From the NCBI RefSeq assembly GCF_016641735.1, contig NZ_JAEDAO010000001.1:2914001-2978000 (forward strand): a stretch of 64,000 bases of DNA, in the 5' to 3' direction. Source of the stretch: Ramlibacter algicola. GTDB lineage: Bacteria; Pseudomonadota; Gammaproteobacteria; Burkholderiales; Burkholderiaceae_C. This document shows, one piece after another, positions 5,514 through 28,417 of this stretch. The notes below the pieces were generated by a model. That model had not been told where the DNA came from. It searched no databases and saw only the letters and a program-made list of their open reading frames with translations. The translations under genes and the position numbers were made by a program. The first letter of the stretch is position 1. The number at the start of each line of letters is the position of its first letter.

Positions 5514-5674
5514 TCGGCTCTCCTTCACGTCATGGGGCGATCCATCCTGTCAAGCCTGCCAGGACACCGCCTCCCCCTTTTGGTTGGTGTGAGGGGTTAG
5601 CCCTAAGACAATCCGCACCGACCCTCTGCAGGATGCCCGGCGAGGCCCACCACATCGGGCCGTTGGAGCACTCC

Positions 5675-6799: not shown

Positions 6800-6816
6800 A
6801 TTCGGAGGGATGAGCC

Positions 6817-7683: not shown

Positions 7684-7687
7684 ATGG

Positions 7688-8125: not shown

Positions 8126-8304
8126 CGGGGATGGGCGGTGGATGCGGCGAGTGCCACATCGCAGGGGAAGCGGGTGGACAGCACGAGATTACTGGCTTGC
8201 AGCCGCTGGTGCGGCGAGGCGCGGAAGCAGCCCGCGGCTCCTTGGGTGGTTGCGGCGCAACGTTCGACGGTGTCTCGATCCAGGCCGTTGACTAGACTCT
8301 CCGC

Positions 8305-8592: not shown

Positions 8593-8597
8593 CAGCG

Positions 8598-9200: not shown

Positions 9201-9205
9201 CGCAC

Positions 9206-9463: not shown

Positions 9464-9522
9464 CGAAGGATTGTGCCCAGCACTGGCGGCGAGCGGGGTC
9501 GTGGGCAGCGCGGCTGGAAGCG

Positions 9523-10416
9523 TTATTCGACCGGCTTCCCCGCCCTCGCCACCGCCTTGCCGGCATCGAACTCCGCGCGCCGGCGCGCCAGTTCCTCCGG
9601 CGCCACGCGCGCCGGGTTGCAGTAGTCCAGCTTCCAGTCGGCCGAGTCGCTCCAGCGTTGCGGCGATTGCACCGTCGTTCTCGGCTGGGACGCGGTCTCG
9701 AGCACCTCGAGCGCGAGGTCCAGCGTCGCCTCCTGCGACGCCGCATCCCACGGCTTGCCGCAGGCGTTGCCGAGCGGGAAGTCCGAGAACAGGAAGCGGG
9801 GCACGCCCACATGTTCGACGATGTCCTTGGCGCAACCGACGACCACCGTCGCGATGCCGGCGGCTTCGAGTGCGCGCGCTGCGAGGCTGAGCGTCTGGTG
9901 GCACACGGGGCAGTTCGGCACCAGCACGGCGGCGTCGACGCCGTCGTCCTCGCAGCGCTGCAGCAGCACCGGCACGTCCACTTCCATCGTGTGGCGCTGG
10001 CTGCGGTTGGTCGGCATGCCGTGGAAGCGGGGCGACAGGCGGAACCGCCCTTCGGCCGCCCACCGCCGCATCAGCGGCAGCGGGAACCAGCAGTTCGCGT
10101 CTTCCATGTTGGCGTGCCGGCGATCGATGGCGACGTGCGAGATGCGCAGGTCGTGGTCCTGCGCGGTGTCGCCGGTGTAGGGCACGAAGAATTTCGCGCC
10201 GGCGTTGTACGGCGCGCCGGCGCCTTGCGGGCCCTTGTCGGGCTGGTACGGCGCGGCGGTGGTGACGAGTGCCAACACCGATTCGCGCAGCGGCTTTGAC
10301 AGCGGGTGGAACGGGACGTCGTCGAAGTGCGCGTAGCGGTAGGCCTGCTCATAGCCGAGCGCCCGGTACCACGCGTGCGTGCGCTGGATGTAGTCGATGG
10401 GGGCGTCGGGGTGCAT
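9523..10416 (-). CDS. Glycine/sarcosine/betaine reductase selenoprotein B (GrdB)-like family protein
   Basis: 297 residues, related to the GrdB-type reductase subunits of clostridia, but in an aerobic proteobacterial version whose reaction is unknown. Conserved-looking segments are KPLRESVLALVTTAAPYQP, RISHVAIDRRHA, VLVPNCPVCHQTLSLAAR with two Cys, and RFLFSDFPLGNACGKPWD. The family link rests on the overall pattern, not on a catalytic assay. No selenocysteine codon or insertion element is needed: the frame is continuous with Cys. ATG 10416 gives MHPDAPIDYIQRTHAWYR; a longer in-frame extension upstream is the shadow of the opposing aldehyde dehydrogenase gene. Confidence 0.7.
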   Translation of the reverse strand: MHPDAPIDYIQRTHAWYRALGYEQAYRYAHFDDVPFHPLSKPLRESVLALVTTAAPYQPDKGPQGAGAPYNAGAKFFVPYTGDTAQDHDLRISHVAIDRRHANMEDANCWFPLPLMRRWAAEGRFRLSPRFHGMPTNRSQRHTMEVDVPVLLQRCEDDGVDAAVLVPNCPVCHQTLSLAARALEAAGIATVVVGCAKDIVEHVGVPRFLFSDFPLGNACGKPWDAASQEATLDLALEVLETASQPRTTVQSPQRWSDSADWKLDYCNPARVAPEELARRRAEFDAGKAVARAGKPVE

Positions 10417-10429
10417 GTGTCCATTGTCT

Positions 10430-10504
10430 TTCCGGCGGGAGCCGGAATCCATGCCCGTGCGCCGCTGGCGCGCCTTCGTGCGGATTGCGGGTCGAGCCCG
10501 CAAT
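10430..10504. repeat. REP-like pair of perfect hairpins
   Basis: In the gap between the GrdB-like and aldehyde dehydrogenase genes are two perfect dyads. One has arms ttccggc/gccggaa (10430-10436 and 10441-10447, loop ggga). The other has arms attgcggg/cccgcaat (10484-10491 and 10497-10504, loop tcgag). The GGAATCCAT flank is shared with the 1361 element. This is the layout of a dispersed bacterial interspersed palindrome; neither hairpin has a T-run. Confidence 0.6.
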
Positions 10505-10590
10505 GACAACGTCTTCAGCGACCGGATGAGGTCCGCCGCGACCCCGATCTCGCTATAACGACCGCATCCCGTCCTGCCACCGGAGCGCCC

Positions 10591-11964
10591 ATGCCTCTGC
10601 AATCCATCAACCCCGCCACCGACGCCGTCATCGCCACGTACGAAGAGATGTCTGCGGCTGAAGTGGCCGGCATCGTCGACGCCACGCACGCAGCCCACCT
10701 GCAATGGCGGACGACCTCCTTCGACCAGCGCGCCAAGGTGCTGCGCGCGGCGGCGCACCTGCTGCGCTCGAGGGCCGACGAGTGGGCGCGGCTGATGGCG
10801 GCCGAGATGGGCAAGCCGCTGCGCGATGGCGTGGCGGAAGCGCAGAAGTGCGCCGACTGCTGCGACTGGTTCGCGGAAAACGGCGCCGCCATGCTCGAGC
10901 GCGAGTCGGTCCGCACCGACGACAAGCACGACAGCTTCGTCCTCTTCCAGCCGCTGGGGGTCGTGCTGGCCGTGATGCCGTGGAACTTCCCGTTCTGGCA
11001 GGCCGTGCGCGCCTTTGCGCCAGCGCTGATGGCGGGCAATGCGATCGTGCTGAAGCACGCGTCCAACGTGTGCGGCTGCGCGATTGCGCTGGAGCGCATC
11101 CTGCGCGAGGCCGGCGCGCCCCAGCACCTGTTCCGCACGCTGTTGATCGGCAGCAAGCACGTCGACGCCGTGATCGAGCATCCGCTGGTGCGCGCCGTCA
11201 CGCTCACGGGCAGCAGCGAGGCGGGCCGTGCGGTGGCCAGCAAGGCGGGCCAGGTGCTGAAGAAATGCGTGCTGGAACTGGGCGGCAGCGACGCGTACAT
11301 CGTGCTCGAGGACGCCGACCTGGACGTCGCGGTCACGGTCTGCGCGAAGGCGCGCCTGGTCAACGGCGGCCAGAGTTGCATCGCGGGCAAGCGATTCCTG
11401 GTCGTCGAGGCGATCCGCGCCGAGTTCGAGAAGCGCTTCGTCGCGAAGATGCAGGCCGTGCGCCAGGGTGACCCGCTCGACCCGGCGACCGAGATCGGCC
11501 CGATGGCGCGCCGCGATTTGCGCGAGGAGATGCACCGGCAGGTCACCGCCAGCATCGAGCGCGGCGCGCGTTGCCTGCTGGGCGGCAGCATTCCGCCAGG
11601 ACCCGGTGCGTTCTATCCGCCCACCGTGCTGGCCGACGTGCGCAAGGGCATGCCGGCGTACGACGAGGAAGTGTTCGGCCCCGTCGCGGCCGTCATCGCC
11701 GTGCGCGACGAAGCGCACGCCATCGAGGTCGCCAACGATTCGATGTTCGGCCTCGGCGGCGGCGTGATCACCCGCGACCTCGCGCGCGGCGAACGCGTCG
11801 CGGCGGCGCTCGAGTGCGGCTGCGCGTTCGTCAACGAGCCGGTGCGGTCCGACTCCCGGCTGCCCTTCGGTGGCGTCAAGCAAAGCGGTTACGGCCGCGA
11901 GCTGTCCGCGTTCGGGATCCGCGAGTTCGTGAACGTGAAGAGCGTGGTGGTGAATCGCGCGTGA
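10591..11964 (+). CDS. NAD(P)-dependent aldehyde dehydrogenase, succinate-semialdehyde dehydrogenase-like
   Basis: Oxidises an aldehyde to the acid; the closest characterised type is E. coli Sad/YneI (succinate semialdehyde), judged from the short 457-residue length and start. Visible are the cofactor-binding PLGVVLAVMPWNFPFW (119-136), general base Glu229 in VLELGGSDAYIV, the nucleophile Cys263 in NGGQSCIAGKR, and PFGGVKQSGYGRELS near the end. It is monocistronic, followed by a convergent phosphatase gene. The substrate is not fixed by context, as neither GABA nor other semialdehyde genes adjoin. Confidence 0.88.
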   Translation: MPLQSINPATDAVIATYEEMSAAEVAGIVDATHAAHLQWRTTSFDQRAKVLRAAAHLLRSRADEWARLMAAEMGKPLRDGVAEAQKCADCCDWFAENGAAMLERESVRTDDKHDSFVLFQPLGVVLAVMPWNFPFWQAVRAFAPALMAGNAIVLKHASNVCGCAIALERILREAGAPQHLFRTLLIGSKHVDAVIEHPLVRAVTLTGSSEAGRAVASKAGQVLKKCVLELGGSDAYIVLEDADLDVAVTVCAKARLVNGGQSCIAGKRFLVVEAIRAEFEKRFVAKMQAVRQGDPLDPATEIGPMARRDLREEMHRQVTASIERGARCLLGGSIPPGPGAFYPPTVLADVRKGMPAYDEEVFGPVAAVIAVRDEAHAIEVANDSMFGLGGGVITRDLARGERVAAALECGCAFVNEPVRSDSRLPFGGVKQSGYGRELSAFGIREFVNVKSVVVNRA

Positions 11965-12025
11965 GGCAGCGAAACCGGCCGCAGGGACCAGGAACGCCGC
12001 GGACGTGAGGCGGCCGCCTCGACAT

Positions 12026-12484
12026 TCATGCGTTGGCCTGCCCCGACAACGCCTGCATCGACGAGCGGACCCACGCCTTGTAGTCCTCGAACGCGCAGAA
12101 AGGTGCTGCGTCGAGTTCGGCCGCACGGATGACGTCGTCGGGCGTCGCGCCCGCCTTCAGCCCCGCATACATGTAGGCCACGGCCGAGGACCTCGGGCCG
12201 GCGCGGCAAGTGACCAGCGTGGGCCGCGGCAATTCATCGAGGGCCGCAACGTGCTGGCGCGCGAGGTTCAGGTCGAGCACCCGCGGCGGATCGCTCACCA
12301 CCCGGGCGCTGTGGTCGACCGCCTGCTGCACCTGCGCGTACGACATGCCGCCCGGCATCGACGCGAACTCGTCGCCGACGATGTAGAGCCAGGACCGGAC
12401 GCCTTGCTCCTTCGCATAGGCGATCGGGTCGTCGATGCGGGCCCGGTTGAACTTCAGGTCGGCGGGCAATCGGAAATCGGCCAT
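12026..12484 (-). CDS. DUF442/BLH-type protein tyrosine phosphatase-like protein
   Basis: 152-residue cytoplasmic protein with a phosphatase-type loop, TLVTCRAGPRSSAVAYM, where Cys and Arg are separated by four residues as in the DUF442 (beta-lactamase-like-hydrolase-associated) phosphatase group. The earlier general-acid region contains ALDELPRP. ATG 12484 is chosen because GAAAGG precedes it; the longer frame up to 12610 lacks a ribosome site. Related proteins occur with sulfide or quinone metabolism genes, but nothing of that kind is adjacent, so the role is open. Confidence 0.75.
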   Translation of the reverse strand: MADFRLPADLKFNRARIDDPIAYAKEQGVRSWLYIVGDEFASMPGGMSYAQVQQAVDHSARVVSDPPRVLDLNLARQHVAALDELPRPTLVTCRAGPRSSAVAYMYAGLKAGATPDDVIRAAELDAAPFCAFEDYKAWVRSSMQALSGQANA

Positions 12485-12657
12485 GGCGGTGCCTTTCGGA
12501 GTGGCGGGGCCGGATGCCCCGGTCCAGATGATGCTCCGGTGGGTCGACGTTTGGAAACGCCAGCGTGCGGGCCTTCTTCCTGAGGCAACTCGGCTGAGGC
12601 TGCTGCCCACCGGACCACGTTGTATGCTGCCCGGCTTCGACCCAGGAAAGAGATCAC

Positions 12658-12930
12658 ATGACCCAAGCCGACGAGCCCAAGAAGAACTCTGCCTTCATGA
12701 AGGCGCTGAAACCGAGCCCCGAGCTGGCCGCAGTGATCGGCCCCGAGCCCGTGCCCCGCACCGAAGCCACGAAGCGCCTGTGGGAGTACATCAAGGCCCA
12801 CAACCTGCAGAACCCGGCGAACAAGCGGAACATCCTCTGCGACGACAAGCTCAAGGCGGTGATGGGCAAGAGCGAGGTCACCATGTTCGAGATGACCGGC
12901 CTGGTGGGCAAGCACCTGCACGCGGCCTGA
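12658..12930 (+). CDS. SWIB/MDM2-domain protein
   Basis: 90 residues, nearly all SWIB domain: FMKALKPSPELAAVIGPEPVPRTEATKRLWEYI, then HNLQNPANKRNILCDDKLK and MFEMTGLVGKHL, the full order of the eukaryotic chromatin/MDM2-type fold. In bacteria such proteins are small, usually single-copy and poorly characterised; a nucleoid or topoisomerase-linked role has been suggested for chlamydial ones. AGGAAAGAG precedes ATG 12658. Monocistronic, convergent with the DUF3820 gene. Confidence 0.93.
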   Translation: MTQADEPKKNSAFMKALKPSPELAAVIGPEPVPRTEATKRLWEYIKAHNLQNPANKRNILCDDKLKAVMGKSEVTMFEMTGLVGKHLHAA

Positions 12931-12942
12931 ACGCGCGCGCCC

Positions 12943-13167
12943 CTACCGCGGCGCAGCGCCGCCGGCGCGGAGGGGCTCGAGGAAGTGCTTGAGCCCGTTG
13001 TGGTCGATCTCGTGCATCAACGCGAGCAGTCGACCCAGCTGCCCCGGGGGGAAACCTTCACGGGCGAACCAGTTCAGGTAGTTGCCCGGCAGGTCGGCGA
13101 CCAGGGTGCCCTTGTACTTCCCGTACGGCATCTCGGTCTTCACGAGGAGTTCCAGCGGGTCGGCCAT
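12943..13167 (-). CDS. DUF3820 family small protein
   Basis: 74 residues with the family pattern TEMPYGKYKGTLVADLPGNYLNWFAREGFPPGQLGRLLALMHEIDHNGL. DUF3820 (also named putative quorum-sensing-regulated virulence factor) proteins are small and of unknown function; the PYGKYKG motif resembles that of nuclease-associated domains. ATG 13167 is taken as the start because the conserved part begins right after it. Sits 44 bases downstream of the nucleotidyltransferase gene on the same strand, so may be cotranscribed with it. Confidence 0.82.
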   Translation of the reverse strand: MADPLELLVKTEMPYGKYKGTLVADLPGNYLNWFAREGFPPGQLGRLLALMHEIDHNGLKHFLEPLRAGGAAPR

Positions 13168-13211
13168 GCATCGATTGTCGTCGGGCCGGGGCAGCATTCC
13201 GGAACCGGACC

Positions 13212-13793
13212 TCAGGCCTCCTCGCACACCTGCAGCCACTCCCACCGACTCTTGTACGAAGCCGCCTTCTCCCGGAACAGCGGCAGATGGCAGGTGAGCG
13301 GATTGGGCGTGAGCACGCCGGCGTAGAGGATCGACAGCCCGTTGGGGACGTAGAGCTCATGCCGCCCCCCGAGCCAGCGCACACCCACGCAAGTCGACGG
13401 AATGAGGAACCTGTCGATCCCCTCCTTCGCACTGGCCAGCTGCGGGTACGGATAGCCGAAGTGCTCCTCGTACCAGAGGTGCACGCGCGCCTGGTTCTTG
13501 ACTTCGACCGGAACGCCCAATGGTCCAAGCACGCGATCGACGCGCTGCTGCACGCGCGCTTCGCCCGCGACCGAGAGGTCGGCGGCGTCGAAGTAGAAGA
13601 TGTCGTAGTCCTTGATGCCGTGCCCGGGCGCGCGGCCGTCCCGCAGGTTCCAGATGGTCTGGAACAGGCAGCCCGCCACCAGCCATCCGTCCTCGAGCTC
13701 GAGTGCCTCCCAGGCGTCCAGGATCGCCCGGTTGCAGCGATTGGCCAGGATGTCCTCGAGGAACCGGGCATCGTCGGGCGCTGGAATGGGCAT
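13212..13793 (-). CDS. Nucleotidyltransferase-like protein (DUF925/COG3575 family)
   Basis: 193-residue cytoplasmic protein of the PF06042-type nucleotidyltransferase-fold group. Diagnostic stretches are LVAGCLFQTIWN (nucleotide-binding helix), the acidic pair in GIKDYDIFYFDAADLS, VEVKNQARVHLWYEEHFGYPY and GVRWLGGRHELYVPNGL. Substrates are unknown for the whole family. ATG 13793 gives MPIPAPDDARFLEDI. The region upstream to the divergent LysR gene (13794-14016) shows no additional gene. Confidence 0.85.
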   Translation of the reverse strand: MPIPAPDDARFLEDILANRCNRAILDAWEALELEDGWLVAGCLFQTIWNLRDGRAPGHGIKDYDIFYFDAADLSVAGEARVQQRVDRVLGPLGVPVEVKNQARVHLWYEEHFGYPYPQLASAKEGIDRFLIPSTCVGVRWLGGRHELYVPNGLSILYAGVLTPNPLTCHLPLFREKAASYKSRWEWLQVCEEA

Positions 13794-14016
13794 CACGCCA
13801 GCATAGGCGACAGGAAAAATGCACACCGTCAGCCGACCGCAAGCGACTGCCCAACAGAGTGGCACCCTCGGCAAATCCAGCACTGGCGCGGGCTGCGCGG
13901 GGTGTCCACATGCTTGTTCACAACCTTCTCCCCGTCCGCTGTGGGCAGCGCGGAGTGCATGGTGTGCTAGCGATGGTGGCGACTCGGGGCGGGCCGACCC
14001 GGGGCACACTCGCCCC

Positions 14017-16951: not shown

Positions 16952-18538
16952 TCAGAGCGACGGACCACCGGCGGACTGCCCCGCCCCTCCGCACACCATG
17001 TCCTCTTGCACCTCGAGGCGAGGATCGTATTTGCGGGCGCCGTACCTCGCGAGGATGCTTTCCAGCCGTCCGGCCTGCGCGTAATGCTTCGAAACGGCAT
17101 AAATGTCGTGCCGCAGGCAAGGTGCGGTCGCGGCATCCCTCTTCATCCACAGCTTCACGCGCTCGCGCATCGTGATCCCGTCGTAGAACGGCACCAGGTA
17201 GACGTCGAAGGGACCCTCGCGAATGGCCGCCGCCATGCTCCGGCACTGGTTGTGCCACGTCCGCGAGCGATCGTGCGCCAGGTCGGTGCCGGGGCGCAGC
17301 ATCGCCAGTTCGCAATGCGCCACGATCAGGTCGTAGTGGCCCTGCGAGACGTCCTGCGGCGTGATCAGGGCATGCGCATACCGCGGCGTGTCGAGTCCCC
17401 AGCTGTCCTCGGCGAACCAGTTGCTGTAGTAGGCCAGCCGGCCGGCCTCGGTGACCAGCATGCGTCCCTGCAATCCGCCCAGGTCCTTCGACACGCCGTA
17501 GATGTTCTCCTGCCGCGACGAGGCCAGCTCCGCGAACGTGACGACGGTCAACTTGAACTGCGCGACGATCGCGAGCGCCAGGAACGCCAGGAAGGCACGC
17601 CGCTCCGTGTCGCTTTGCGCCAGCACGAAGGCGATGCCGGCGAACATGGGCGCCAGGAACCGGTTGCCGATGTTCTGCTCGAGCCGCATCGCCGAATAGA
17701 AGGCGGCGGGCAGGATGAACAGCGCCAGGAATTCGACGGCGAGTCGCTTGCGGCGACTGGACAGGAGGATGGCAAGCGCGCCGGGCAGCAGCACCATCAG
17801 GACGTCGCGGACCGAATCGGAATAGAAGAGCAGCAGGTCGCGCGGCGCCGCGGCCTTGACGAGGAAGGGCAAGGGCAGGAATTCACCGAAGTACCACCAG
17901 CGCCACGCGAAATAGAGCACGCCCGGCAGGACCAGGCACAGCAGCGCATTCCGGATCTCGTCGCCCAGGCGCCGCTCCCCCGACCCCGTGATGGCGCGAT
18001 AGAGCAGGCAGCCCGCACCCCACACGACGCCATCGGGCCGGATGAGGCACAGGACCAGGACCGACAGGTAGACGTAGCGGCTCCCGGTCAGCGTCCAGCG
18101 CAGGACGAGCACGTACCAGGCGGAAAAGAAGATCGCGCTGAAGCCGTTGAGGCTCGCGTACAGGTAAGGCGTGAGCAGCAGCGCGACGCCGACCAGGATG
18201 CGCTCCTTCGGCTCGCGGAAGGCGTGCAGCACCAGCAGGACCCCGACGGCGTTCAGGACCATCGCGGACGCGAACTCGTCCACCCCCATCGCCTTCAAGC
18301 CGGCGATGACCACCATCCACAGGAAGTCCGTGGCACCTTCGATCGGCATCGCGTGGACGCTGTAGGTGATGATCCCCCGGCTGGCGAGATTTTTCGCGTA
18401 GTCGTACAGGATGACCGCGTCTTCGGCCGGGATCGTGTACAGGTAGGCGAGCAGGAACAGCAGCGCCAGCGTGGCGGTCAAGGCCCTGGACACCAGGACC
18501 GGCATGCTGGCCGGCCGAGGCATGACGATGGTGTTCAT
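16952..18538 (-). CDS. GT-C membrane glycosyltransferase, AftB-like candidate arabinofuranosyltransferase
   Basis: 528 residues with about ten or more membrane helices in the first 390, then a soluble C-terminal domain. The first loop reads TIPAEDAVILYDYAKNLASRGIITYSV and IEGATDFLW. This matches the AftB-type pattern (acidic pair, Tyr/Asn-Leu, Glu-Gly...Asn/Asp-Phe-Leu-Trp) in which the acidic pair is the GT-C catalytic motif. Such enzymes use polyprenyl-phosphate sugars on the periplasmic face. It is the last gene of a five-gene minus-strand operon and overlaps dprE2 by ATGA. Its neighbours make polyprenyl-phosphoryl-arabinose, so transfer of D-Araf to a surface acceptor is the natural inference. 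The acceptor is unknown. Confidence 0.78.
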   Translation of the reverse strand: MNTIVMPRPASMPVLVSRALTATLALLFLLAYLYTIPAEDAVILYDYAKNLASRGIITYSVHAMPIEGATDFLWMVVIAGLKAMGVDEFASAMVLNAVGVLLVLHAFREPKERILVGVALLLTPYLYASLNGFSAIFFSAWYVLVLRWTLTGSRYVYLSVLVLCLIRPDGVVWGAGCLLYRAITGSGERRLGDEIRNALLCLVLPGVLYFAWRWWYFGEFLPLPFLVKAAAPRDLLLFYSDSVRDVLMVLLPGALAILLSSRRKRLAVEFLALFILPAAFYSAMRLEQNIGNRFLAPMFAGIAFVLAQSDTERRAFLAFLALAIVAQFKLTVVTFAELASSRQENIYGVSKDLGGLQGRMLVTEAGRLAYYSNWFAEDSWGLDTPRYAHALITPQDVSQGHYDLIVAHCELAMLRPGTDLAHDRSRTWHNQCRSMAAAIREGPFDVYLVPFYDGITMRERVKLWMKRDAATAPCLRHDIYAVSKHYAQAGRLESILARYGARKYDPRLEVQEDMVCGGAGQSAGGPSL

Positions 18539-19272
18539 ATCTTCAACCTCACGAAGCATGGCGAGGGGATCGACCGGATGACCAGCATCACCGTGCGCCA
18601 GAATCCCGGCAGGTAGACCTCGCCGTTGGCGGAGTCGACGGCCTTCACGATCTTCTTCGCCACCGCGGACGGCCGGGCCCACAGCGGGCCCTTCTTGAAG
18701 CCCGCGGTCATGGGCGTGTCCACCAGTCCGGGCTTCAGCGTCACGACCGCCACGTTCGACTTGTGCAGCCGTTGCCGCAGGCCGGACGCGAACGCCGTCA
18801 GCATCGCCTTCGCCGACCCGTACACGTAGTTGCTCGCCCGGCCCCGGTCTCCGGCCACCGACGAGATGACCGCGATGGTCCCGCTGCGCTGCGCTTCCAG
18901 CCGATTGGCCACCAGCGTCAGCAGCGCAATGGTGGACAGCGCGTTGGTCCGGATCTCGGCCATCGTCAGGTCCACGTCGCGCTCGCAAGCCTTCTGGTCG
19001 GACAAGGTGCCGTGCGCGATGAGCACCACGTCGGTGCCGCCGAGCACGCGATCCGCCTCGTCCAGCACGGCCTGGTGCTTGCCGAAGTCGTTGAGGTCGA
19101 GCACGACCGTCGCGACCTTGGACGCGCCGCGCACGTCGAGGTCGCCGGCCATGGCCGCGAGCCGCTCCTCGTTGCGCCCGACCAGCAGCAGCGCGTCGCC
19201 CCGCTCGGCCCACAGCCGCGCGCACTGCTCGGCGATCGCCGAGGTCGCGCCGATGACGAGGATCCGCTTCAT
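18535..19272 (-). CDS. dprE2: Decaprenylphosphoryl-2-keto-ribose reductase-like SDR
   Basis: 245-residue short-chain dehydrogenase. In mycobacteria DprE2 reduces the 2-keto intermediate made by DprE1 to polyprenyl-phosphoryl-D-arabinose with NADH. Visible are the nucleotide loop VIGATSAIAEQCARLWA (6-22), DLND at 59-62, AHGTL in place of the common NAG, Ser137/138, and Tyr151...Lys155 in YVYGSAK. KPGLVDTPMTAGFKKGPLWA is the segment seen in DprE2-type SDRs. Four-base overlaps join it to dprE1 upstream and the GT-C gene downstream. The SDR fold is certain; the specific role rests on the operon. Confidence 0.88.
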   Translation of the reverse strand: MKRILVIGATSAIAEQCARLWAERGDALLLVGRNEERLAAMAGDLDVRGASKVATVVLDLNDFGKHQAVLDEADRVLGGTDVVLIAHGTLSDQKACERDVDLTMAEIRTNALSTIALLTLVANRLEAQRSGTIAVISSVAGDRGRASNYVYGSAKAMLTAFASGLRQRLHKSNVAVVTLKPGLVDTPMTAGFKKGPLWARPSAVAKKIVKAVDSANGEVYLPGFWRTVMLVIRSIPSPCFVRLKI

Positions 19273-20558
19273 TGCAAGCCCAACCTTCGTGATTGCGCGG
19301 AACGGAACCGGCCGATCGCGCCGTACTTCTCCCGCACCGCTTCGAACTGTCGCCAGCGCGGATAGCCGGCCTTGAACGTGGATTCCGCCATGACGGCGTC
19401 CTTGGCCAGGTAGATGCGTCCGCCCGCGGCGGTGACCAGGTCGTCCAGGCCGCGCAGGAAGGCGACGGTCGTCGCGGTCAGCTGAAAGTCCAGGGCCAGG
19501 GTGTAGCCCTCGATCGGGAACGACAGGAGGTTGTCGTTCTGCGGACCCAGTTGCTTCAGCACCGCCAGGAAGGACGCACGGCCGCTGCCGGCGATCTCTT
19601 CGAGCACGCGCCGCATGACGGCCAGCCCGCCCGCACGCGGCAGCGCGAACTGGTACTGCACGAAGCCGCGCCGGCCGTACAGCCTGTTCCACTGCCCGAC
19701 GGCGTCGAGCGGATAGAAGAACGGGAAGAAGGGAACGCTGGCCATGCCCGGGCGCGCGCTGCCGTAATGCACCGCATTGAACGCGCGCATCGTCACCTTG
19801 TTCAGGACCTGCGACGGCGCGTGGAAGGGCACGTCGGCGGGCTCCGGCAGCTGGAACGCCAGCCCGCCCTCCTCGGCATGCTCGCCCAGCGCCAGCACGC
19901 TCCGGCCCAGGCTCTTGCCGCTGGCGAGGCAATCGATCCAGGCCACGCTGTAGGTCGAGCCGGCGTGCGCGTCGAGCAGTTCGCAAGCGTGTTCGAGGCA
20001 CGTCGCCTTGAGGGTCGACTGGCGGATCTGCGCGGACCGGATCGGGATCAGCCGGACGGTGACCGTGAGGATCACGCCCGTCAGGCCCATCCCGCCGCAA
20101 GTGGCATGGAACAGGTCCGCGTGCTCGCTGGGCGACGCCGTCACGACCTCGCCGGTGCCGAGCATCAAGGTGAGGCCCACCACGTGCTGGCCGAACGTGC
20201 CGGCCACGTGATGGTTCTTGCCATGCACGTCGCTCGCGACCGCGCCTGCCAGCGTGACGTAGCTGGTGCCGGGCGTCACCGGCAGGAACCATCCCCTGGG
20301 CACGACCCGCCGCAGGATGTCCCGCAACGTGAGGCCCGCTTCGCCGGTGAGCAGGCCCGTGCCTTCGTCGAATGCGATGAAGCGGTCGACGTGGCCGGTC
20401 TGCGCGACCGTCGCGGCGGTGGCGCTGTCGCCGTAGCTGCGGCCCATGCCGCGGGCGATGAAGGGCTCCTCCAGGCACTCGCGGAAGCCGCTGAGCGCCA
20501 GCGGTTGCAGGACGCGGGCGTCCTGGACCGGATAGCCGCCCCAGCCGCTGATCATCAT
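19269..20558 (-). CDS. dprE1: Decaprenylphosphoryl-beta-D-ribose 2'-oxidase-like FAD protein
   Basis: 429 residues, FAD-linked oxidase of the VAO fold. It matches mycobacterial DprE1 motif by motif: SGWGG start, IARGMGRSYGD (Tyr42, family Tyr60), FLPVTPGTSYVTLAGAVASD, HGKNHHVAGTFGQHV (112-126, family His132 region), CGGMGLTG, YPLDAVGQWNRLYGRRGF, VQYQF, LSFPIEGYTLALDF and AKDAV with Lys386 (family Lys418). DprE1 oxidises the 2'-OH of polyprenyl-phosphoryl-ribose. The residue aligned with Cys387, the covalent target of benzothiazinones in M. tuberculosis, is Ala355. Start 20558 overlaps the stop of the GtrA gene (ATGA). Confidence 0.93.
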   Translation of the reverse strand: MMISGWGGYPVQDARVLQPLALSGFRECLEEPFIARGMGRSYGDSATAATVAQTGHVDRFIAFDEGTGLLTGEAGLTLRDILRRVVPRGWFLPVTPGTSYVTLAGAVASDVHGKNHHVAGTFGQHVVGLTLMLGTGEVVTASPSEHADLFHATCGGMGLTGVILTVTVRLIPIRSAQIRQSTLKATCLEHACELLDAHAGSTYSVAWIDCLASGKSLGRSVLALGEHAEEGGLAFQLPEPADVPFHAPSQVLNKVTMRAFNAVHYGSARPGMASVPFFPFFYPLDAVGQWNRLYGRRGFVQYQFALPRAGGLAVMRRVLEEIAGSGRASFLAVLKQLGPQNDNLLSFPIEGYTLALDFQLTATTVAFLRGLDDLVTAAGGRIYLAKDAVMAESTFKAGYPRWRQFEAVREKYGAIGRFRSAQSRRLGLQ

Positions 20559-20983
20559 GGGAACCTCGCGGCCGGCGCGCTCACGAAGACGTAGCGCTTG
20601 TCCAGCTGGTACTTCACGTAGAACCCGATCCCCAGGCCGACGACGGCACCGGCATAGCGCATCGAGGCACTGCCGAAGGCCAGATGGAAGGCGTACTCCA
20701 CGCTCCAGAAGATCAGCGTGGTGAACACGCCCATGAAGCTGTAGAGCGTGAACAGCTGGCCGTCGTGCACGAGGCTGCGGCTGCTGAAATCGAAGATGAA
20801 GCGCTTCTCCAGCACGTAGCGCAGCGGCAGGCCCGCGGCGGTTCCCACTAGGATCGACACTTCCACCGCGCGGGGGCCGCCGTAGATCCACATGCTGGCC
20901 ATCTGGGCACCGAGGTTGATCGCAGTGGAGATCGCCGCGAACAACGTGTAAAGCACGGCGATGCTCAGCGCACGCCCTGCCAT
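20555..20983 (-). CDS. GtrA-family membrane protein
   Basis: 142 residues, four membrane helices with the GtrA/DPMS layout: LSIAVLYTLFAAISTAINLGAQ, ILVGTAAGLPLRYVLEKRFIF (the Lys-Arg-Phe-x-Phe signature after helix 2), FMGVFTTLIFWSVEYAFHL, and AVVGLGIGFYVKYQLDKRYVFV. GtrA proteins help polyprenyl-linked sugars cross the membrane or recruit glycosyltransferases; Rv3789 beside mycobacterial dprE1 is of this family. Here it overlaps the UbiA gene by 19 bases and dprE1 by 4, which places it in the same pathway. Confidence 0.88.
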   Translation of the reverse strand: MAGRALSIAVLYTLFAAISTAINLGAQMASMWIYGGPRAVEVSILVGTAAGLPLRYVLEKRFIFDFSSRSLVHDGQLFTLYSFMGVFTTLIFWSVEYAFHLAFGSASMRYAGAVVGLGIGFYVKYQLDKRYVFVSAPAARFP

Positions 20984-22473
20984 ACCCAGTCCGCCGTTCC
21001 CGCGGCCAGCACGAAAGCCAGGGCGATCATGGCCACGATGGCCAGGCTGCCCCGGTCCTTGATGGCGAACACCACCGGATCGTCGTGCATCTCGGCCCGG
21101 TGCGCCTTCATCCACGCGCGGCTCACCCAGAGCAGCATCAGCGGGATCGCCAGCCAGATGACGCGCGGGTGCTCGTACATCGCGGCGACGGTATCGCTGT
21201 TCAGGTAGAGCGCGAGCACCATGACCGACGCGTAGCCCGCTGCGATGCCCAGCGTCTGCAGCAGGTTGGCGTCGGCCACCTCGTAGCCACGCCCGTGCGC
21301 CCGCTTGCCGTGCGCCTGCGCTTCGACCTGCAGTTCGGCGTACCGCTTGACGAAGGCAAGCGACAGGAAGATGAACACGCAGAAGGCCAGCAGCCAGAAC
21401 GACAACTCGATCTCCGCCGCCTCGCCGCCGGCGATGACCCGCAGCGTGTAGAGCGCCGCCAAAGTGAGGCAGTCGACCAGCGGAATGCGCTTGAGGTGCA
21501 GCGAGTACAGGGTGGTCACGACGAAGTACAGGCCCAGCCACCCGAGAAAATCGGCGCCGACGAACGCACCGACCAGCACGGACAGTGCGAGCAGCACCGG
21601 GACGAGGGCCGCCCCCTGCGCGATGGGCACGGCGCCGGAGGCCAGCGGACGGTGCCGCTTCCTCGGATGCCGGCGGTCGCTCTCGAGATCGAGCAGGTCG
21701 TTGGTCACGTAGACCGCGGAGGCGCACAGGCTGAAGGCCACGAACGCCAGGGCCAGCGTCCCGACCGTGGCCAGGTCGCCCAGCTGGTGCGCGGCCAGCA
21801 GCGGCACGAACAGCAGCAGGTTCTTGAGCCACTGGTGCGCGCGAATGAGCTTGACCCACTGGCGCAGGTCGGCGCGCTCGCGCGGAAACTGCTTGGCGAC
21901 GTCGGCCACCTTCGCCGCCTGCGCGGCAACGGACGGACGCGCATTGGCCAGGATGGCGCGCCTCGCACCGGCCCACACCGCAACGTCGGCGGACGCATTG
22001 CCGGCGTAGTCGTACCCGTGGGAGCCGAACTTGGCCTCGAGCGCCGCGCGCTTGGCCTTGCCGGTGACGTTGACGGAACCGTCGCTGGCAATGACTTCGT
22101 CGAACACCTGCAGGTGGTCGGCGACCTGCTGCGCGACGCGGCGATCCGCGGCCGTGCACAGGGCGATGCTGCGGCCGCTGGCCCTCTCCGTCTTCAGCCA
22201 CGCGAGCAGCTGGTCGTTGTACGGCAGGGTCGACGCGTCGATGGACGTCGTGGCGGCCAGCCTCGCCTTCAGCGCGGCCTTGCCCATCGCCAGCCACAGC
22301 GGCAATGCGAACACGAGCAGCGGCTTGTCTTTCAGCAGGCCGATCGCGAGCTCATGCAGGGTGTCCGTGAACGTCAGGGTCCCGTCCAGGTCCACGACCA
22401 GCACCGTTGCGAGCCCCGGCCCGTAGGCGGCCTGCCCGGCGGTCGCATCCAGCTCCTGGAAGTCGGCCTTCAT
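20965..22473 (-). CDS. HAD phosphatase-UbiA prenyltransferase fusion, candidate polyprenyl phosphoribosyl synthase plus phosphatase
   Basis: 502 residues in two domains. Residues about 20-180 are a HAD phosphatase (nucleophile in VVDLDGTLT, 27-34; ALCTAAD; Lys in VTGKAKR; acidic loop GNASADVAVW, where the first position is Asn rather than Asp). Residues about 200-500 are a UbiA-type enzyme with NDLLDLESD (258-266, metal-binding), GEAAEI and about eight or nine helices. Mycobacterial UbiA (Rv3806c) adds phosphoribose from PRPP to decaprenyl phosphate. The fused HAD would then remove the 5'-phosphate to give the DprE1 substrate. First gene of the operon; promoter expected in 22474-22789. Confidence 0.88.
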   Translation of the reverse strand: MKADFQELDATAGQAAYGPGLATVLVVDLDGTLTFTDTLHELAIGLLKDKPLLVFALPLWLAMGKAALKARLAATTSIDASTLPYNDQLLAWLKTERASGRSIALCTAADRRVAQQVADHLQVFDEVIASDGSVNVTGKAKRAALEAKFGSHGYDYAGNASADVAVWAGARRAILANARPSVAAQAAKVADVAKQFPRERADLRQWVKLIRAHQWLKNLLLFVPLLAAHQLGDLATVGTLALAFVAFSLCASAVYVTNDLLDLESDRRHPRKRHRPLASGAVPIAQGAALVPVLLALSVLVGAFVGADFLGWLGLYFVVTTLYSLHLKRIPLVDCLTLAALYTLRVIAGGEAAEIELSFWLLAFCVFIFLSLAFVKRYAELQVEAQAHGKRAHGRGYEVADANLLQTLGIAAGYASVMVLALYLNSDTVAAMYEHPRVIWLAIPLMLLWVSRAWMKAHRAEMHDDPVVFAIKDRGSLAIVAMIALAFVLAAGTADWVWQGVR

Positions 22474-22789: not shown

Positions 22790-23830
22790 ATGTGGAAGTT
22801 CAGCATGCGACGGGACTGTCTGGCGGTGGCCGCGTGCGCCGCCTTGGTGTCGTGTGGAGGCGGCGACGGCGGTCCGGCTGAAAGCCAGCCGGCGGCGACG
22901 TTCACCGTCGCACGAGCCCAGGTGCTGGCCGCCGATGCGACGCTCGACGCGGCCCACTGGCCCGCGACCGCGCCCTACGGCTACTTGTCGACGTATCTCA
23001 ACGACCCGCTCAATCCCCCCTCCATCCTGCAGCCCGTCAAGGCCATCGCCAGCGGGCGGCTGGCGCGAGTCTCCTTGAATCTGTGCGTGTCGGGCACGTC
23101 GGGCAGCACCGTCCTCCAGGTCCGGCGCACGGCCGCATTCCTGGCCCCTGTCATCGCCACGGCGCAAGTGCCGCGGGCGACCAGCCCCCTGTGGGGTTCT
23201 GCGCAATGTCCGGGCGCCGGCGACCTGGCTGGCAACGCGCAAGCCGAAGTGACGTTCGACCTCAGCGGCTCGAACGTCGACCTCACCGCGGGCGAGGAGT
23301 ACAGCATCGCGCTGGCCAACGCTGTGCCTGCATCTGCCGGCGAGAACTGGTTCGGGGATTTCAACGGCAACAGGGACCCCACGCCCGACAACTGGCTGGT
23401 CCTGATGACCTACCAGGGATCACAGAGCGACTTGTTCGGCTACCGGATGCGGTTCAAGACCTACGTGGTGCCGACAGCCGCGTGGACGTTCAGCGGCTTC
23501 CTGCCGCCCGTCAAAGCGTGGCCGGCGATCAACCGGTTGCAGGCCGGCGCGGCGCTTCCCGTGAAGTTCAGCTTCGGCGCCGACAAGGGGCTCGACATCT
23601 TCAGCGCCGCGCCGTCGTCCGTGGCCACCGACTGCGACGCAGCGGCGACACCAGTCCCTGCCGTCGAATCCGCTGCAAGCCCCGGACAGTCGGCGCTTCG
23701 CTACGACCCGCGCACCACGCAGTACACGTACTTGTGGCAGACCGAAGCGAGTTGGGCGAATTCCTGCCGGCAGCTCGTGCTGCGTTTCAAGGACGGGAGC
23801 ACGCAGCGGGCGAGGTTCCAGTTTCGGTAG
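22790..23830 (+). CDS. Secreted lipoprotein with C-terminal PxKF domain
   Basis: 346 residues. Signal peptide with lipobox ALVSC near residue 20, then a Gly-rich tether. The middle (residues about 45-225) looks like a beta-sandwich binding domain (LARVSLNLCVSGTSGSTVLQV; VTFDLSGSNVDLTAGEEYSIAL). The last 100 residues are a PxKF domain: LPVKFSFGADKGLDIF, a two-Cys loop, SALRYDPRTTQYTYLWQTE, and CRQLVLRFKDG. PxKF domains occur at the ends of secreted proteins in Burkholderiales and actinomycetes and have no assigned function. AGGAGG precedes ATG 22790. Divergent from the arabinose-lipid operon; a link is only positional. Confidence 0.85.
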   Translation: MWKFSMRRDCLAVAACAALVSCGGGDGGPAESQPAATFTVARAQVLAADATLDAAHWPATAPYGYLSTYLNDPLNPPSILQPVKAIASGRLARVSLNLCVSGTSGSTVLQVRRTAAFLAPVIATAQVPRATSPLWGSAQCPGAGDLAGNAQAEVTFDLSGSNVDLTAGEEYSIALANAVPASAGENWFGDFNGNRDPTPDNWLVLMTYQGSQSDLFGYRMRFKTYVVPTAAWTFSGFLPPVKAWPAINRLQAGAALPVKFSFGADKGLDIFSAAPSSVATDCDAAATPVPAVESAASPGQSALRYDPRTTQYTYLWQTEASWANSCRQLVLRFKDGSTQRARFQFR

Positions 23831-24843: not shown

Positions 24844-26628
24844 ATGCAGTCCACGAGCGGTGCAGCCGCGAGCCCCCAGAGCGCCGGTGCAGGCAGCTGG
24901 GTGCGCCAGAACCTCTCCGGCTACCGCGTCGCGAACGCCATGGCCGACGTGCTGAAGGCCGCCGGCGTGCGCGAGATCTTCGGCCAGAGCTGCCCGACGG
25001 CCCTGTTCCTCGCCGCCGAGGCGGTGGGCATCCGGCAGATCGGCTACCGCACCGAGAACGCCGGTGCCGCGATGGCCGACGGCGCCGCGCGCGTGAGCCG
25101 CCAGATTTCCGTCATCACCGCGCAGAACGGCCCGGCCGCCGCGCTGCTGGTCGCAGGCTTCGCCGAGGCGACCAAGGCCTCGGTGCCGATCCTGGCCATC
25201 GTGCAGGAAGTGCCCCGCAGCAACGCCGACAAGAACGCGTTCCAGGAACTGGACCACCACGCGCTGTTCGGCGCCTGCGCCAAGTGGGTGCGCCGCATCG
25301 ACGTGGCCGAACGCGCCGCCGAATACGTGGAGCGGGCCATCCGGATCGCGACGTCGGGACGGCCCGGCCCCGTCGTGCTGCTGGTGTCGCCCGACGTGCT
25401 GACGCAGACCTGCGAAAAGGCGGCGCCCATCACGCAGGACAGCGACGAGCCGCTCGGCCGTTTCCCGCTGGACCGCACGGTCCCCGTGCAGGCCCGCCTG
25501 CAGAAGCTGGCCGACGCGCTGCTCGCGGCCAAGCGACCGCTGGTGGTGGCCGGCGGCGGCGTGCACCTCTCGGGTGCCGCCGAGGCGCTGGCGCGCCTGC
25601 AGGCACTCGCCGGCCTGCCGATGGCCAGCACCAACATGGGCAAGGGCGCCGTCGACGAGACGCACCCGCTCGCATTGGGCGTCATCGGCAACACGATGGG
25701 AACGCGCAGCCCCGCCAAGTTCCTGCAGCCTTACGTGGAAAGCGCGGACTTCGTGCTGTTCGTCGGCACGCGCACCAACGAAAACGGCACCGCGTCGTGG
25801 TCGCTGTTCCCCAAGGGGGCGACCTTCGCGCAGATCGACATCGACAGCCAGGAGCTGGGGCGCAACTATGCGGGGATGCGGTTCGCCGGTGATGCTGCCG
25901 CAACGCTCGAGGCACTTTGCGGATTGCTCGAAGGACGCTGCGACGCGGTCACCCGCGAGCGCATCGCCGAATTCGCACCGATGGTGGAACAGGCGCGCCA
26001 GGATCACCTGGAGGAACTGGCGCCCTACTCGCGCAGCGACGCCACGCCGATGCGGCCCGAGCGCATCATGGCCGAGCTGGCCCGCTGCGAAGGCGACGTC
26101 ACGTGGGTGGCGGACGCGAGCTACTCGTCGATCTGGCTGGTGCAGTACCTGCGCAGCAGCCGGCCGGGCACGCGCTTCGTCACGCCGCGCGGCATTGCGG
26201 GCCTGGGCTGGGGCGTGCCGATGGCGATCGGCGCCAAGATCGCCAGGCCGCAGTCGCGCGTGATCTGCCTGACGGGCGACGGCGGCTTCGCCCACTGCTG
26301 GGCCGAACTCGAAACGGCGCGCCGCCACGCCGTCCCGGTGACGATCGCGGTGTTGAACAACGGCGTGCTCGGCTTCCAGATCAACGCGGAAGAAAGCCGC
26401 TTCGGCACGCACACCGACGTGTGCCACTTCGGTGACATCGACTACGTGGCGATCGCGCGCGCCTGCGGTTGCGACGGACGCAGGGTCGCCACCGCGGCCG
26501 AGTTGCGCAAGGCGTTGGAGGCTTCCGCGCAAAGCAAGGTGCCGTTCGTGATCGACATCAAGACCGACCCGGCGGCGTTCCCGCCGATCACGGCGTTCGA
26601 GTCGCAGTTCAAGCCGCTGCAAGCATGA
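24844..26628 (+). CDS. Thiamine-diphosphate-dependent enzyme, acetolactate synthase-like
   Basis: 594 residues with the three-domain layout of the acetolactate synthase/benzoylformate decarboxylase family. The pyrimidine domain has the activating Glu in YRTENAGAAMADGAAR, and the central domain VAGGGVHLSGAAEALARL. The diphosphate domain has GDGGFAHCWAELETARRHAVPVTIAVLNN, the GDG-x25-NN metal motif. No FAD-binding hallmark of true acetolactate synthase is obvious and no small subunit adjoins, so it is more likely a catabolic 2-oxo-acid decarboxylase, lyase or carboligase. First gene of a five-gene operon with two SDRs and two Bug receptors. No Shine-Dalgarno is evident at ATG 24844. Confidence 0.88.
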   Translation: MQSTSGAAASPQSAGAGSWVRQNLSGYRVANAMADVLKAAGVREIFGQSCPTALFLAAEAVGIRQIGYRTENAGAAMADGAARVSRQISVITAQNGPAAALLVAGFAEATKASVPILAIVQEVPRSNADKNAFQELDHHALFGACAKWVRRIDVAERAAEYVERAIRIATSGRPGPVVLLVSPDVLTQTCEKAAPITQDSDEPLGRFPLDRTVPVQARLQKLADALLAAKRPLVVAGGGVHLSGAAEALARLQALAGLPMASTNMGKGAVDETHPLALGVIGNTMGTRSPAKFLQPYVESADFVLFVGTRTNENGTASWSLFPKGATFAQIDIDSQELGRNYAGMRFAGDAAATLEALCGLLEGRCDAVTRERIAEFAPMVEQARQDHLEELAPYSRSDATPMRPERIMAELARCEGDVTWVADASYSSIWLVQYLRSSRPGTRFVTPRGIAGLGWGVPMAIGAKIARPQSRVICLTGDGGFAHCWAELETARRHAVPVTIAVLNNGVLGFQINAEESRFGTHTDVCHFGDIDYVAIARACGCDGRRVATAAELRKALEASAQSKVPFVIDIKTDPAAFPPITAFESQFKPLQA

Positions 26629-27410
26629 GCACGCCTGCATCCGTTGCTCCGAAGGACTTCGCTGGGCGCCATGCGCTCGTCACCGGCGGAGGCGGCGGCA
26701 TCGGTCGCGCCATTGCGCTCGGACTGGCCGAGCGCGGCGCGGACGTCTGCGTGCTCGACGTCGGCGCTTCAGCGGCTGAGGAAACCGCCGCCGCCGTTCG
26801 CGCGCTCGGCCGCCGTGCCGCCGTCGTCGTGCACGACACGGGCCACGATGCCGTCGTCGACGCGATCGGCTCCGCTGCAGCCGGCTTCGGCGCGTTCGAC
26901 CTGCTGGTCAACAACGCCGGCATCTCGCCCAAGAAGCCCGACGGCCGCAAACGCATGCTGTGGGAGACGTCGCCGCAGGAGTGGCGCCAGGTCGTCGACG
27001 TGAATCTCAACGGCTACTTCCTCGCGCTGCGCGCGGTGCTGCCGGGCATGATGGAACGCCGGCGCGGCGCCGTGGTCAATATCGGGTCGCTGGCCGGCCT
27101 GCGCTACTCGTCCATCGCCGGCGCGGCCTACGCGACGGCGAAGAATGCCGTGATCGGGCTGACCCGGCAGGCTGCGGGCGAGGTGGCCGAGTTCGGGATC
27201 CGCATCAACTGCATCGCGCCCGGCCGCATCGAGACCGGCATGGCCGCCGTCGCGGGCGGATCGTTCAACGAAGCGATCCGCGAGAGCACGCCCCTGCGCC
27301 GGCTCGGACTGCCGGAGGACATCGCCGAAGCGGCGCTGTTCCTCCTGTCGGACCGGGCCAGCTTCATCACCGGCGAAAGCCTGGTCGTGTCCGGCGGACG
27401 CGGCCTCTGA
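26625..27410 (+). CDS. Short-chain dehydrogenase/reductase in the ThDP operon
   Basis: 261-residue classical SDR. Cofactor loop TGGGGGIGRAIALGLAERGA, NNAG at LLVNNAGISPKKPDG, catalytic Ser in NIGSLAGLRYSS, and Tyr-x3-Lys in YATAKNAVIGL. APGRIETGM follows. ATGA overlap with the ThDP gene implies translational coupling. The second SDR of the operon (29438) shares the loop NNAGISPK, so the two may be paralogues acting on related hydroxy/keto pairs. NAD rather than NADP preference is suggested by Asp in VCVLDVG. Confidence 0.9.
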   Translation: MSTPASVAPKDFAGRHALVTGGGGGIGRAIALGLAERGADVCVLDVGASAAEETAAAVRALGRRAAVVVHDTGHDAVVDAIGSAAAGFGAFDLLVNNAGISPKKPDGRKRMLWETSPQEWRQVVDVNLNGYFLALRAVLPGMMERRRGAVVNIGSLAGLRYSSIAGAAYATAKNAVIGLTRQAAGEVAEFGIRINCIAPGRIETGMAAVAGGSFNEAIRESTPLRRLGLPEDIAEAALFLLSDRASFITGESLVVSGGRGL

Positions 27411-27436
27411 CATTCATCCACCAGGAGCCATTCCAC

Positions 27437-28417
27437 ATGAAGTCCCTTCCCCGCCGCGCCGTCCTGGCGGCCGCCATGGCCGCTTGCGCCACCGCAGCCT
27501 TCCCGGCTGCTGCCGCGAGCTGGCCCGAGCGCCCGCTGAAGATCATCGTCCCCTACCCGCCGGGCGGCATCACCGATATCGTCGGCCGCTCGATCGCGGA
27601 GCGGCTGTCCGAGACGCTGCGCCAGCCGGTCGTGGTGGACAACCGCGCGGGTGCCGGCGGCACGATCGGCGCCTCCGAAGCGGCGCGCGCGACCGCCGAT
27701 GGCTACACGCTGTTCATCGGAACGAGCGCCACCAACGGCACCAACCCGAGCACCTTCAAGGAACTTCGCTACAAGCCCGACACCGACTTCGCGCCGGTGG
27801 CCCTGCTCGCGACGGCGCCGCTGATGATCATCGTGAATCCCTCGGTGCCGGCGAAGACGCTGCCCGAGCTGGTGAAGTACGTGAAGGCGAACCCGGGCAA
27901 GGTCAACTACGCCAGCACCGGCAATGGCGGCTCCGTGCACCTGACCACCGAGCTGTTCGCGCTGCAGACGGGCACGTCGCTGACGCACGTCGTCTACAAG
28001 GGCAGCGCTCCCGCGCTGAACGATCTCATGGGCGGCCACGTCCAGCTGATGTTCGACAACGTCCCGTCCGCGGCGCCGCTGGCCGCGGCCGGCAAGGTAC
28101 GTGCGCTGGCCGTCACGAGCACCAAGCGCACCGCGCTGGCACCCGACGTCCCCACGGTGGCCGAGACCGCCGTGCCGAACTTCGAGTCGCTCTCCTGGAT
28201 CGCGCTCTACGCGCCCGCGGGCACACCGCCGGCGATCGTCAAGCAACTGAACGACGCCGTGAACGCGGGCCTGAAGAACGCCAAGCTGCTGACCACGTTC
28301 GAGAAGGCGGGCCTCGACCCGGTGGGTGGCACGCCGGACTCGCTGGCGCGCTACCAGGCCGCCGAGATCGCGAAGTGGGCCGACGTCGTGAAGACGATCA
28401 AGTACGTGCCGGAGTGA
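27437..28417 (+). CDS. Bug-family (TctC-like) periplasmic solute-binding protein
   Basis: 326 residues. Cleavable signal peptide (RRAVLAAAMAACATAAFPAAAA) followed by the Bug start WPERPLKIIVPYPPGGITDIVGR, then VVVDNRAGAGGTIGASEAARATADGYTL, GHVQLMFDNVPSA and APAGTPPAIVKQL. These are standard for receptors of tripartite tricarboxylate transporters, which bind carboxylates. No TctA/TctB membrane genes are present nearby, as is usual for the many orphan Bug proteins of Burkholderiales. AGGAG precedes ATG 27437. Confidence 0.93.
   Translation: MKSLPRRAVLAAAMAACATAAFPAAAASWPERPLKIIVPYPPGGITDIVGRSIAERLSETLRQPVVVDNRAGAGGTIGASEAARATADGYTLFIGTSATNGTNPSTFKELRYKPDTDFAPVALLATAPLMIIVNPSVPAKTLPELVKYVKANPGKVNYASTGNGGSVHLTTELFALQTGTSLTHVVYKGSAPALNDLMGGHVQLMFDNVPSAAPLAAAGKVRALAVTSTKRTALAPDVPTVAETAVPNFESLSWIALYAPAGTPPAIVKQLNDAVNAGLKNAKLLTTFEKAGLDPVGGTPDSLARYQAAEIAKWADVVKTIKYVPE

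Follow-up and report, generated by a model that had tools for sequence, protein, structure and literature searches.

Within a 64,000-nucleotide stretch of the 4.2 Mb Ramlibacter algicola genome (the window, G000:C1:2914001-2978000), we analysed a compact set of five minus-strand genes that probably form one cassette for extracytoplasmic transfer of D-arabinofuranose (D-Araf). They encode, in order, a HAD-UbiA fusion, a GtrA-family small membrane protein, a DprE1-like oxidase, a DprE2-like reductase and a GT-C membrane glycosyltransferase (Table 1). An earlier note, made from the letters alone, had described five overlapping minus-strand genes in this order and at these positions, and a check of the open reading frames (ORFs) found all five intact and open. 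The four-base overlaps that it described are present at three junctions (4 nt each), whereas HAD-UbiA and GtrA overlap by 19 nt; the GtrA start is backed by a homologue of equal length at locus L111 of another genome (G and L numbers denote genomes and loci). Two more UbiA-family genes lie elsewhere in the R. algicola genome, so the fused gene is an additional one.

Table 1 Genes of the cassette, with positions in the window and lengths in amino acids (aa)
Feature	Position	Strand	Length and residues
HAD-UbiA fusion	20965-22473	minus	502 aa; DLDGT at residue 28, NDLLDLESD at 258, KRYAEL at 376
GtrA-family small membrane protein (proposed lipid-linked-pentose flippase)	20555-20983	minus	142 aa
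DprE1-like FAD oxidase	19269-20558	minus	429 aa
DprE2-like SDR reductase	18535-19272	minus	245 aa; YxxxK at Y151
GT-C membrane glycosyltransferase, AftB-remote family	16952-18538	minus	528 aa; E39-D40, GATD 68-71, RPDG 167-170, R213 and R293 conserved

The earlier note had assigned the first four proteins to the UbiA, GtrA, DprE1 and DprE2 families, and their best profile and PDB matches fall in those families. HAD-UbiA scored 661 bits against NF006088 (cut-off 351) over residues 23-491 and 84 bits against PF01040, and its closest solved structure is the mycobacterial decaprenyl-phosphate phosphoribosyltransferase 8j8j (E 4e-29), whose NDxxDxxxD and KRYAEL motifs are kept. The best DPPR-synthase model gave it 166 bits, against 42.5 bits for the quinone model TIGR01474. 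The HAD part scored 25.9 bits against PF12710, slightly below the cut-off of 27, and the DLDGT and NDLLDLESD motifs match residues probed by mutagenesis in Citrobacter ORF15 (HAD D18; N247, D248, D251 and D255). This evidence supports the gene as encoding a putative UbiA-type polyprenyl-phosphate phosphoribosyltransferase (PRP-PPPRS) fused to a HAD phosphatase. Passages of Kelly et al. 2024 (PMC11127046) describe ORF15, with its N-terminal HAD domain followed by UbiA, as converting phosphoribosyl pyrophosphate to farnesyl-phosphate-linked ribofuranose (farnesyl-P-Ribf), and replacement of the HAD Asp18 as giving mainly the phosphorylated form, with a little farnesyl-P-Ribf left. By comparison with ORF15, the fused HAD domain is the probable 5'-phosphatase, a role that the earlier note had not assigned.

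The GtrA protein scored 163.5 bits against NF037976 (cut-off 50) and 24.5 bits against PF04138, below its cut-off of 26.1. The DprE1-like protein is closest in the PDB to DprE1 (4aut, E 5.7e-75), with the first non-DprE1 match at E 1.1e-11, and its best family is NF053785 (377.6 bits; next family 64 bits). For the DprE2-like protein, NF005489 gave 329.5 bits (cut-off 267), and the closest PDB structure is DprE2 (21gq_C, E 7.6e-27; next E 1.6e-19). The nearest solved relatives of the UbiA, DprE1 and DprE2 proteins are thus three enzymes of the mycobacterial pathway, on which the cassette reading draws. In the alignment, A355 of the DprE1-like protein stands where the mycobacterial chain has the Cys of GWNVCVDF, which we take to be the residue attacked by benzothiazinones.

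The fifth protein matched nothing in Pfam or NCBIfam at E 0.1, and its predicted fold is GT-C (predicted local distance difference test score, 93.5). AftB was matched in the PDB neither by its single sequence nor by the profile of its family, A1, at E 10. Profile A1 matched an intermediate family, A2 (E 1.1e-9), and profile A2 matched AftB (E 4.4e-4), so the tie to AftB is only transitive. When a single A2 member (L054) served as query AftB was not found; only the A2 profile found it. In hhalign, the four controls, each run as a single sequence (the window UbiA and three further fifth genes), had probabilities below 1, and the single A2 member had 64.9. The structural alignment with AftB gave about 15 percent identity. 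D40, conserved in 77 of 78 sequences, aligns with the second D of the A2 motif RDDG, which in turn aligns with the ADDG that begins at residue 60 of AftB; the first D is E here. The catalytic Asp of the AftB DD motif is D62 (PMC12041299). Together, these matches suggest that the window protein is remotely homologous to AftB. The AftB-like label of the earlier note thus stands as to GT-C fold and remote homology through A2, and falls as to any closer likeness, there being no direct PDB match. Should D40 act like D62 of AftB, the enzyme would be predicted to retain the configuration and form beta-D-Araf; for the beta-D-Araf side-chain linkage, the relevant passage of the 2024 paper names no example besides AftB (PMC11127046).

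Members of the transferase family seem not to have been characterised: of 8,000 candidates scored, 160 passed as homologues, and those among the 120 listed are named hypothetical protein or glycosyltransferase RgtA/B/C/D-like. A profile search for relatives gave 120 listed entries nearly identical in proteins to the earlier search. We found no second copy in the R. algicola genome, no match on viral contigs with the single-sequence query and none on plasmids at E 1e-10. At L008 (Caballeronia fortuita, 10001-11160) the match of the close homologue is split in two, with a query gap at 130-160 and an end at 405; this copy, in contrast to those at L004 and L005, is perhaps broken.

The order HAD-UbiA, GtrA, DprE1, DprE2 is seen again in other genomes and on alphaproteobacterial plasmids, and the cassette is therefore not a chance arrangement. 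The earlier note had proposed a search for conserved synteny in the host order, and there the order of this donor module is kept across genera, with DprE2 adjoining DprE1 in 29 of the 30 DprE1 loci examined, our own included (loci were available for 30 of the 41 DprE1-bearing genomes of the order). Full DprE1 is present in 8 of 40 genomes of the genus, again with our own; four of the seven others show the four-gene order (G035, G007, G004 and G034), although the G004 contig stops in DprE2 and the G034 module is split over two contigs. What follows the module differs. The gene that follows in G035 and G034 is a member of family A2 (the two copies share 60 percent identity), and its putative GT-C class rests on the profile match to AftB; in G007 it encodes another multi-span protein without a Pfam match, as judged by counting hydrophobic spans. 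In G136, from another family of the order, a module 64-71 percent identical to that of the window is followed by a PMT_2-type protein. The module of G151 is followed by a GT4-type glycosyltransferase, not a GT-C enzyme.

DprE1 (E 1e-40) was also found in 64 plasmid records, of which we opened five, from Salipiger, Azospirillum, Rhizobium, Cereibacter and Paracoccus. In all five, a UbiA gene that has DLDGT and NDxxDxxxD is followed by GtrA and DprE1, in that order, Cereibacter having one additional gene in between. On the Rhizobium, Cereibacter and Paracoccus plasmids, an uncharacterised protein of 504-520 aa without a Pfam match comes directly after DprE2; we count these fifth genes, with that of G007, as candidate transferases, set apart from the GT-C enzymes. 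The Paracoccus plasmid pAK3 (L163) has three related proteins in tandem after the module (9080-13796; 520, 503 and 549 aa, 38-46 percent identical), adjoined by a protein annotated as GT87; perhaps several transferases share one donor there. On the Azospirillum plasmid (L161) an acyltransferase lies between DprE1 and DprE2, a kinase follows and a Calx-beta protein is nearby, and on the Salipiger plasmid pTPRO6 (L159) the module is flanked by calcium-binding proteins, which come after DprE2, and a protein with an M10 metallopeptidase C-terminal domain, in place of a transferase. Secreted repeat proteins may be the acceptors on these two plasmids. No phage record matched DprE1 at E 1e-10. The module at L036 and L039 has LPG_synthase_TM proteins beside it, perhaps other flippases.

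Several genomes thus have a different membrane protein next to the module, and it looks as though the donor genes are fixed and the terminal gene is variable. GC content (0.66-0.70) and GC content at third codon positions (0.90-0.95) of four cassette genes are close to the averages for the whole window (0.696 and 0.913); GtrA, shorter than 200 aa, fell outside this test. Composition therefore does not support a recent foreign origin: any transfer was not recent, and the argument for mobility rests on phylogeny and position. In a DprE1 tree of 28 hand-chosen rows, the window protein is sister to that of G136 with support of 100/100, and the seven rows from the genus need four changes. To the left of the cassette is a LysR-Tim44 pair, whose genes lie within about 1.5 kb of each other in 24 of 26 relatives from the genus; in none of the 26 does this site hold the SpoIIAA-like gene, the transferase or HAD-UbiA (27 of 30 Tim44 loci were used, the weaker, second-type matches L146-L148 being excluded). 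In G007 a distance of 2.9 Mb separates the cassette from Tim44, and in G035 the two are on different contigs, which places the module at different sites within one genus.

A scan of genome contigs gave 37 loci of the GT-C family, whose titles point to Proteobacteria, Acidobacteria, Bacteroidetes and further groups. Co-occurrence was counted for 33 of them, setting aside L022 (same assembly as L020), L017 (short contig), L040 (weak match) and L027, which does have a DprE1 piece within 10 kb. Full DprE1 (E <= 2.1e-78) is present in 29 of these 33 genomes, against DprE1 (E <= 1e-40) in 41 of 399 genomes of the host order (Fisher p 9e-22); the two genes lie within 10 kb of each other at 10 of the 37 loci. 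Among the 399 genomes the transferase is strong in one, our own, and weak in one more, which also has DprE1. In two Caballeronia genomes, a HAD-UbiA-DprE1-DprE2 set with GtrA close by is on another contig than the transferase. The earlier note had presumed that proteobacterial D-Araf systems are few; the 41 genomes and 64 plasmid records speak against this, as does a passage that calls the pathway type widespread (PMC11127046).

We consider it probable, at about 0.82, that the five genes are one extracytoplasmic D-arabinofuranosylation cassette. Direct evidence comes from the assignments of the five genes, their catalytic motifs, the GT-C fold, the repeated occurrence of the module and the joint presence of the transferase family and DprE1; from these we infer all the reactions, the carrier lipid and its flipping, as well as the acceptor and its linkage to the sugar. 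In the proposed pathway, the HAD domain fused to UbiA would strip the 5'-phosphate from lipid-linked ribose, and DprE1 (oxidation at C2) and DprE2 (reduction) would then convert polyprenyl-P-ribofuranose to polyprenyl-P-D-arabinofuranose in the cytoplasm. GtrA would move this lipid over the inner membrane, and the GT-C enzyme would place D-Araf on a surface acceptor encoded elsewhere.

Several observations weigh against this reading. The DprE1-like protein, at 377.6 bits, stays below the curated NCBI equivalog cut-off of 500; none of the 399 genomes of the order and none of the 33 GT-C genomes reaches it, a Corynebacterium glutamicum control does, and the cut-off may have been drawn for actinobacterial members. 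The DprE2-like protein likewise scored 186.9 bits against the DprE2 model NF053786 (curated cut-off 250). The GT-C protein has no characterised close homologue and no notable direct sequence match in the PDB, and ArnT scored slightly higher than AftB in both fold comparisons. Four of the 33 GT-C genomes lack full DprE1, all titled as metagenome-assembled genomes, which may be incomplete; the Fisher test of 29/33 versus 41/399 ignores relatedness and compares several phyla with one order; and the closest named GT-C relatives, in Caballeronia, have no DprE1 within 10 kb. The module is arranged differently in 3 of the 8 DprE1-bearing genomes of the genus (G005, G010 and G017), and in the nearest module (L111, G136:C1, 7067-8494) HAD-UbiA reads as two same-frame ORFs of 142 and 331 aa, perhaps an interrupted gene or a sequencing error. 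Finally, no window gene is linked to the cassette as an acceptor gene, in line with the earlier note, which had said that no neighbouring gene names the acceptor.

It is very improbable that a quinone-type UbiA, a gulonolactone-type oxidase and an unrelated SDR were misread as a pathway. UbiA, FAD_binding_4 and SDR are large families, but the margins of 166 to 42.5 bits for UbiA and 378 to 64 bits for DprE1 place these proteins with DPPR synthase and DprE1, so that the subfamily check suggested by the earlier note does not refute the pathway, and the quinone-type and gulonolactone-oxidase assignments were rejected on those margins. The two other UbiA-family genes already in the genome and the gene order conserved across genera also argue against ordinary paralogues. 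We hold it improbable, if less so, that the product is a soluble arabinosylated compound such as a signal molecule, or that the lipid carries another pentose. A precedent for the former is Azorhizobium noeCHOP, which reportedly D-arabinosylates Nod factors in a proteobacterium; it is likened to the cassette by description and not by sequence, and its acceptor is soluble, whereas GtrA and GT-C proteins imply use outside the cytoplasm. Another pentose would fit the scores of DprE1 and DprE2 below their curated cut-offs, and Citrobacter O2 is described as making xylofuranose with a different epimerase (PMC11127046), but DprE1 and DprE2 together are the known C2-epimerase and the nearest solved relatives are the mycobacterial pair.

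If the cassette makes lipid-linked D-Araf, the sugar would end on a surface acceptor. An O-antigen, capsule or exopolysaccharide with side chains modified after polymerisation, as in Citrobacter, comes close to an even chance and is rated somewhat above a pilin. The prototype Citrobacter system modifies the O-antigen, as described in PMC11127046, and the R. algicola genome has five Wzy_C loci above cut-off. Read by eye, with no family search, some GT-C relatives lie among putative polysaccharide genes: dTDP-sugar type genes at L036 and L037, and a co-polymerase and a polymerase in Caballeronia (L004 and L005); by eye, too, the neighbours at L006 look like housekeeping genes, and in the window no polysaccharide gene was recognised beside the cassette. 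Less likely is a type IV pilin as in P. paraeruginosa, with the GT-C enzyme arabinosylating PilA encoded at another locus. The genome does encode a PilA-type pilin (PF00114, 52.7 bits) at L149 (G000:C1:325000-344900, near 334 kb; 845-9776), followed on the same strand by a GT2 protein, two ORFs of 258 and 399 aa without a Pfam match, two proteins with GT1/GT2-type domains and an ABC transporter, so that L149 looks like a pilin-linked glycosylation locus. The P. paraeruginosa D-Araf genes, on genomic island RGP80, are also described as lying apart from pilA-tfpWX (PMC12369383). Yet its TfpW transferase lies beside pilA, while ours is with the donor genes; the glycosyltransferases at our pilA locus may add another sugar to the pilin; and the GT-C protein was checked for pilin-specific features by family searches alone.

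The proposed D-Araf cassette can be compared with several known systems. The Citrobacter youngae O1 and O2 systems are three-component pentofuranose systems, reported together with DprE1/E2 candidate systems for Araf-containing glycans (Kelly et al. 2024, PMC11127046). They share with the cassette an N-terminal HAD fused to a UbiA-type transferase, a flippase and a GT-C transferase, and the cassette has both the NDxxDxxxD of the prototype phosphoribosyltransferase and the fused HAD motif. The flippase is a MATE protein there and a GtrA protein here, the cassette adds DprE1 and DprE2 and has no polysaccharide locus attached, and the D-x-x-E-Y spacing of the Citrobacter GT-C enzyme ORF12 (D31, E34 and Y35; family GT136) is absent here by eye. 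With mycobacteria the cassette shares UbiA (DPPR synthase), DprE1, DprE2 and a putative GT-C arabinosyltransferase, with the catalytic Asp aligned to that of AftB; there the phosphatase is a separate protein of another family, Rv3807c (PMC11127046), and the transferases are many, while here HAD is fused and there is one transferase. The P. paraeruginosa genes (RGP80, PSPA7_6245-6251, and TfpW), likened by description and not by sequence comparison, share Gram-negative synthesis of lipid-linked D-Araf apart from the acceptor; the transferase is beside pilA and UbiA has no HAD domain, whereas here transferase and donor genes form one cassette. A P. syringae candidate is described with a C-terminal HAD domain (PMC11127046, PMC12369383).

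The gtrA-gtrB-gtr(type) O-antigen cassettes, outlined in part in PMC11127046, share constant donor and flippase genes, a variable terminal GT-C gene and a position apart from the acceptor genes, with a glucosyl lipid and two donor genes instead of a pentofuranosyl lipid and four. Passages of the same paper mention systems without a known acceptor, one of them in a phage, and suggest seroconversion. A portable arabinosyl seroconversion cassette is a tentative extension that we consider doubtful: a fixed module for polyprenyl-P-D-Araf would be combined with an interchangeable transferase that chooses the surface target, and would move as gtr cassettes do, the window transferase being a Gram-negative retaining AftB-type enzyme that adds beta-D-Araf.

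Divergent from the cassette lies a plus-strand gene (22790-23830) for a protein of 346 aa with a PxKF domain (NF038114, 118.8 bits) and, by eye, a lipoprotein-like start; it is a possible exported partner or acceptor candidate. Ten other window proteins that were scanned (24844-28417, 30334-31302, 37009-38832, 44693-51139 and 61556-62557) look ordinary: a thiamine pyrophosphate enzyme, an SDR, a LysR regulator, TctC-type receptors, NMT1/ABC transporter parts, a branched-chain amino acid permease and a subtilase.

The chemistry proposed here is not new, with close precedents in Citrobacter, P. paraeruginosa and mycobacteria. A literature search over titles and the openings of abstracts gave no five-gene cassette of this make-up and no exchange of transferases next to an unchanging set of donor genes. 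The apparent novelty lies in the architecture, which works like the three-component systems and differs from them in the flippase family, in the epimerase pair, in being a self-contained unit and probably in the transferase family. D-arabinofuranose typifies mycobacterial walls and seldom decorates other surfaces. A self-contained unit from outside the actinobacteria that brings together a putative phosphatase, an epimerase pair, a flippase candidate and a transferase would be a simple system, usable in harmless hosts, for testing in which order the steps run, what GtrA does and how the acceptor is chosen. If the terminal transferase is interchangeable, such cassettes would offer surface antigens a general way of acquiring pentofuranoses.

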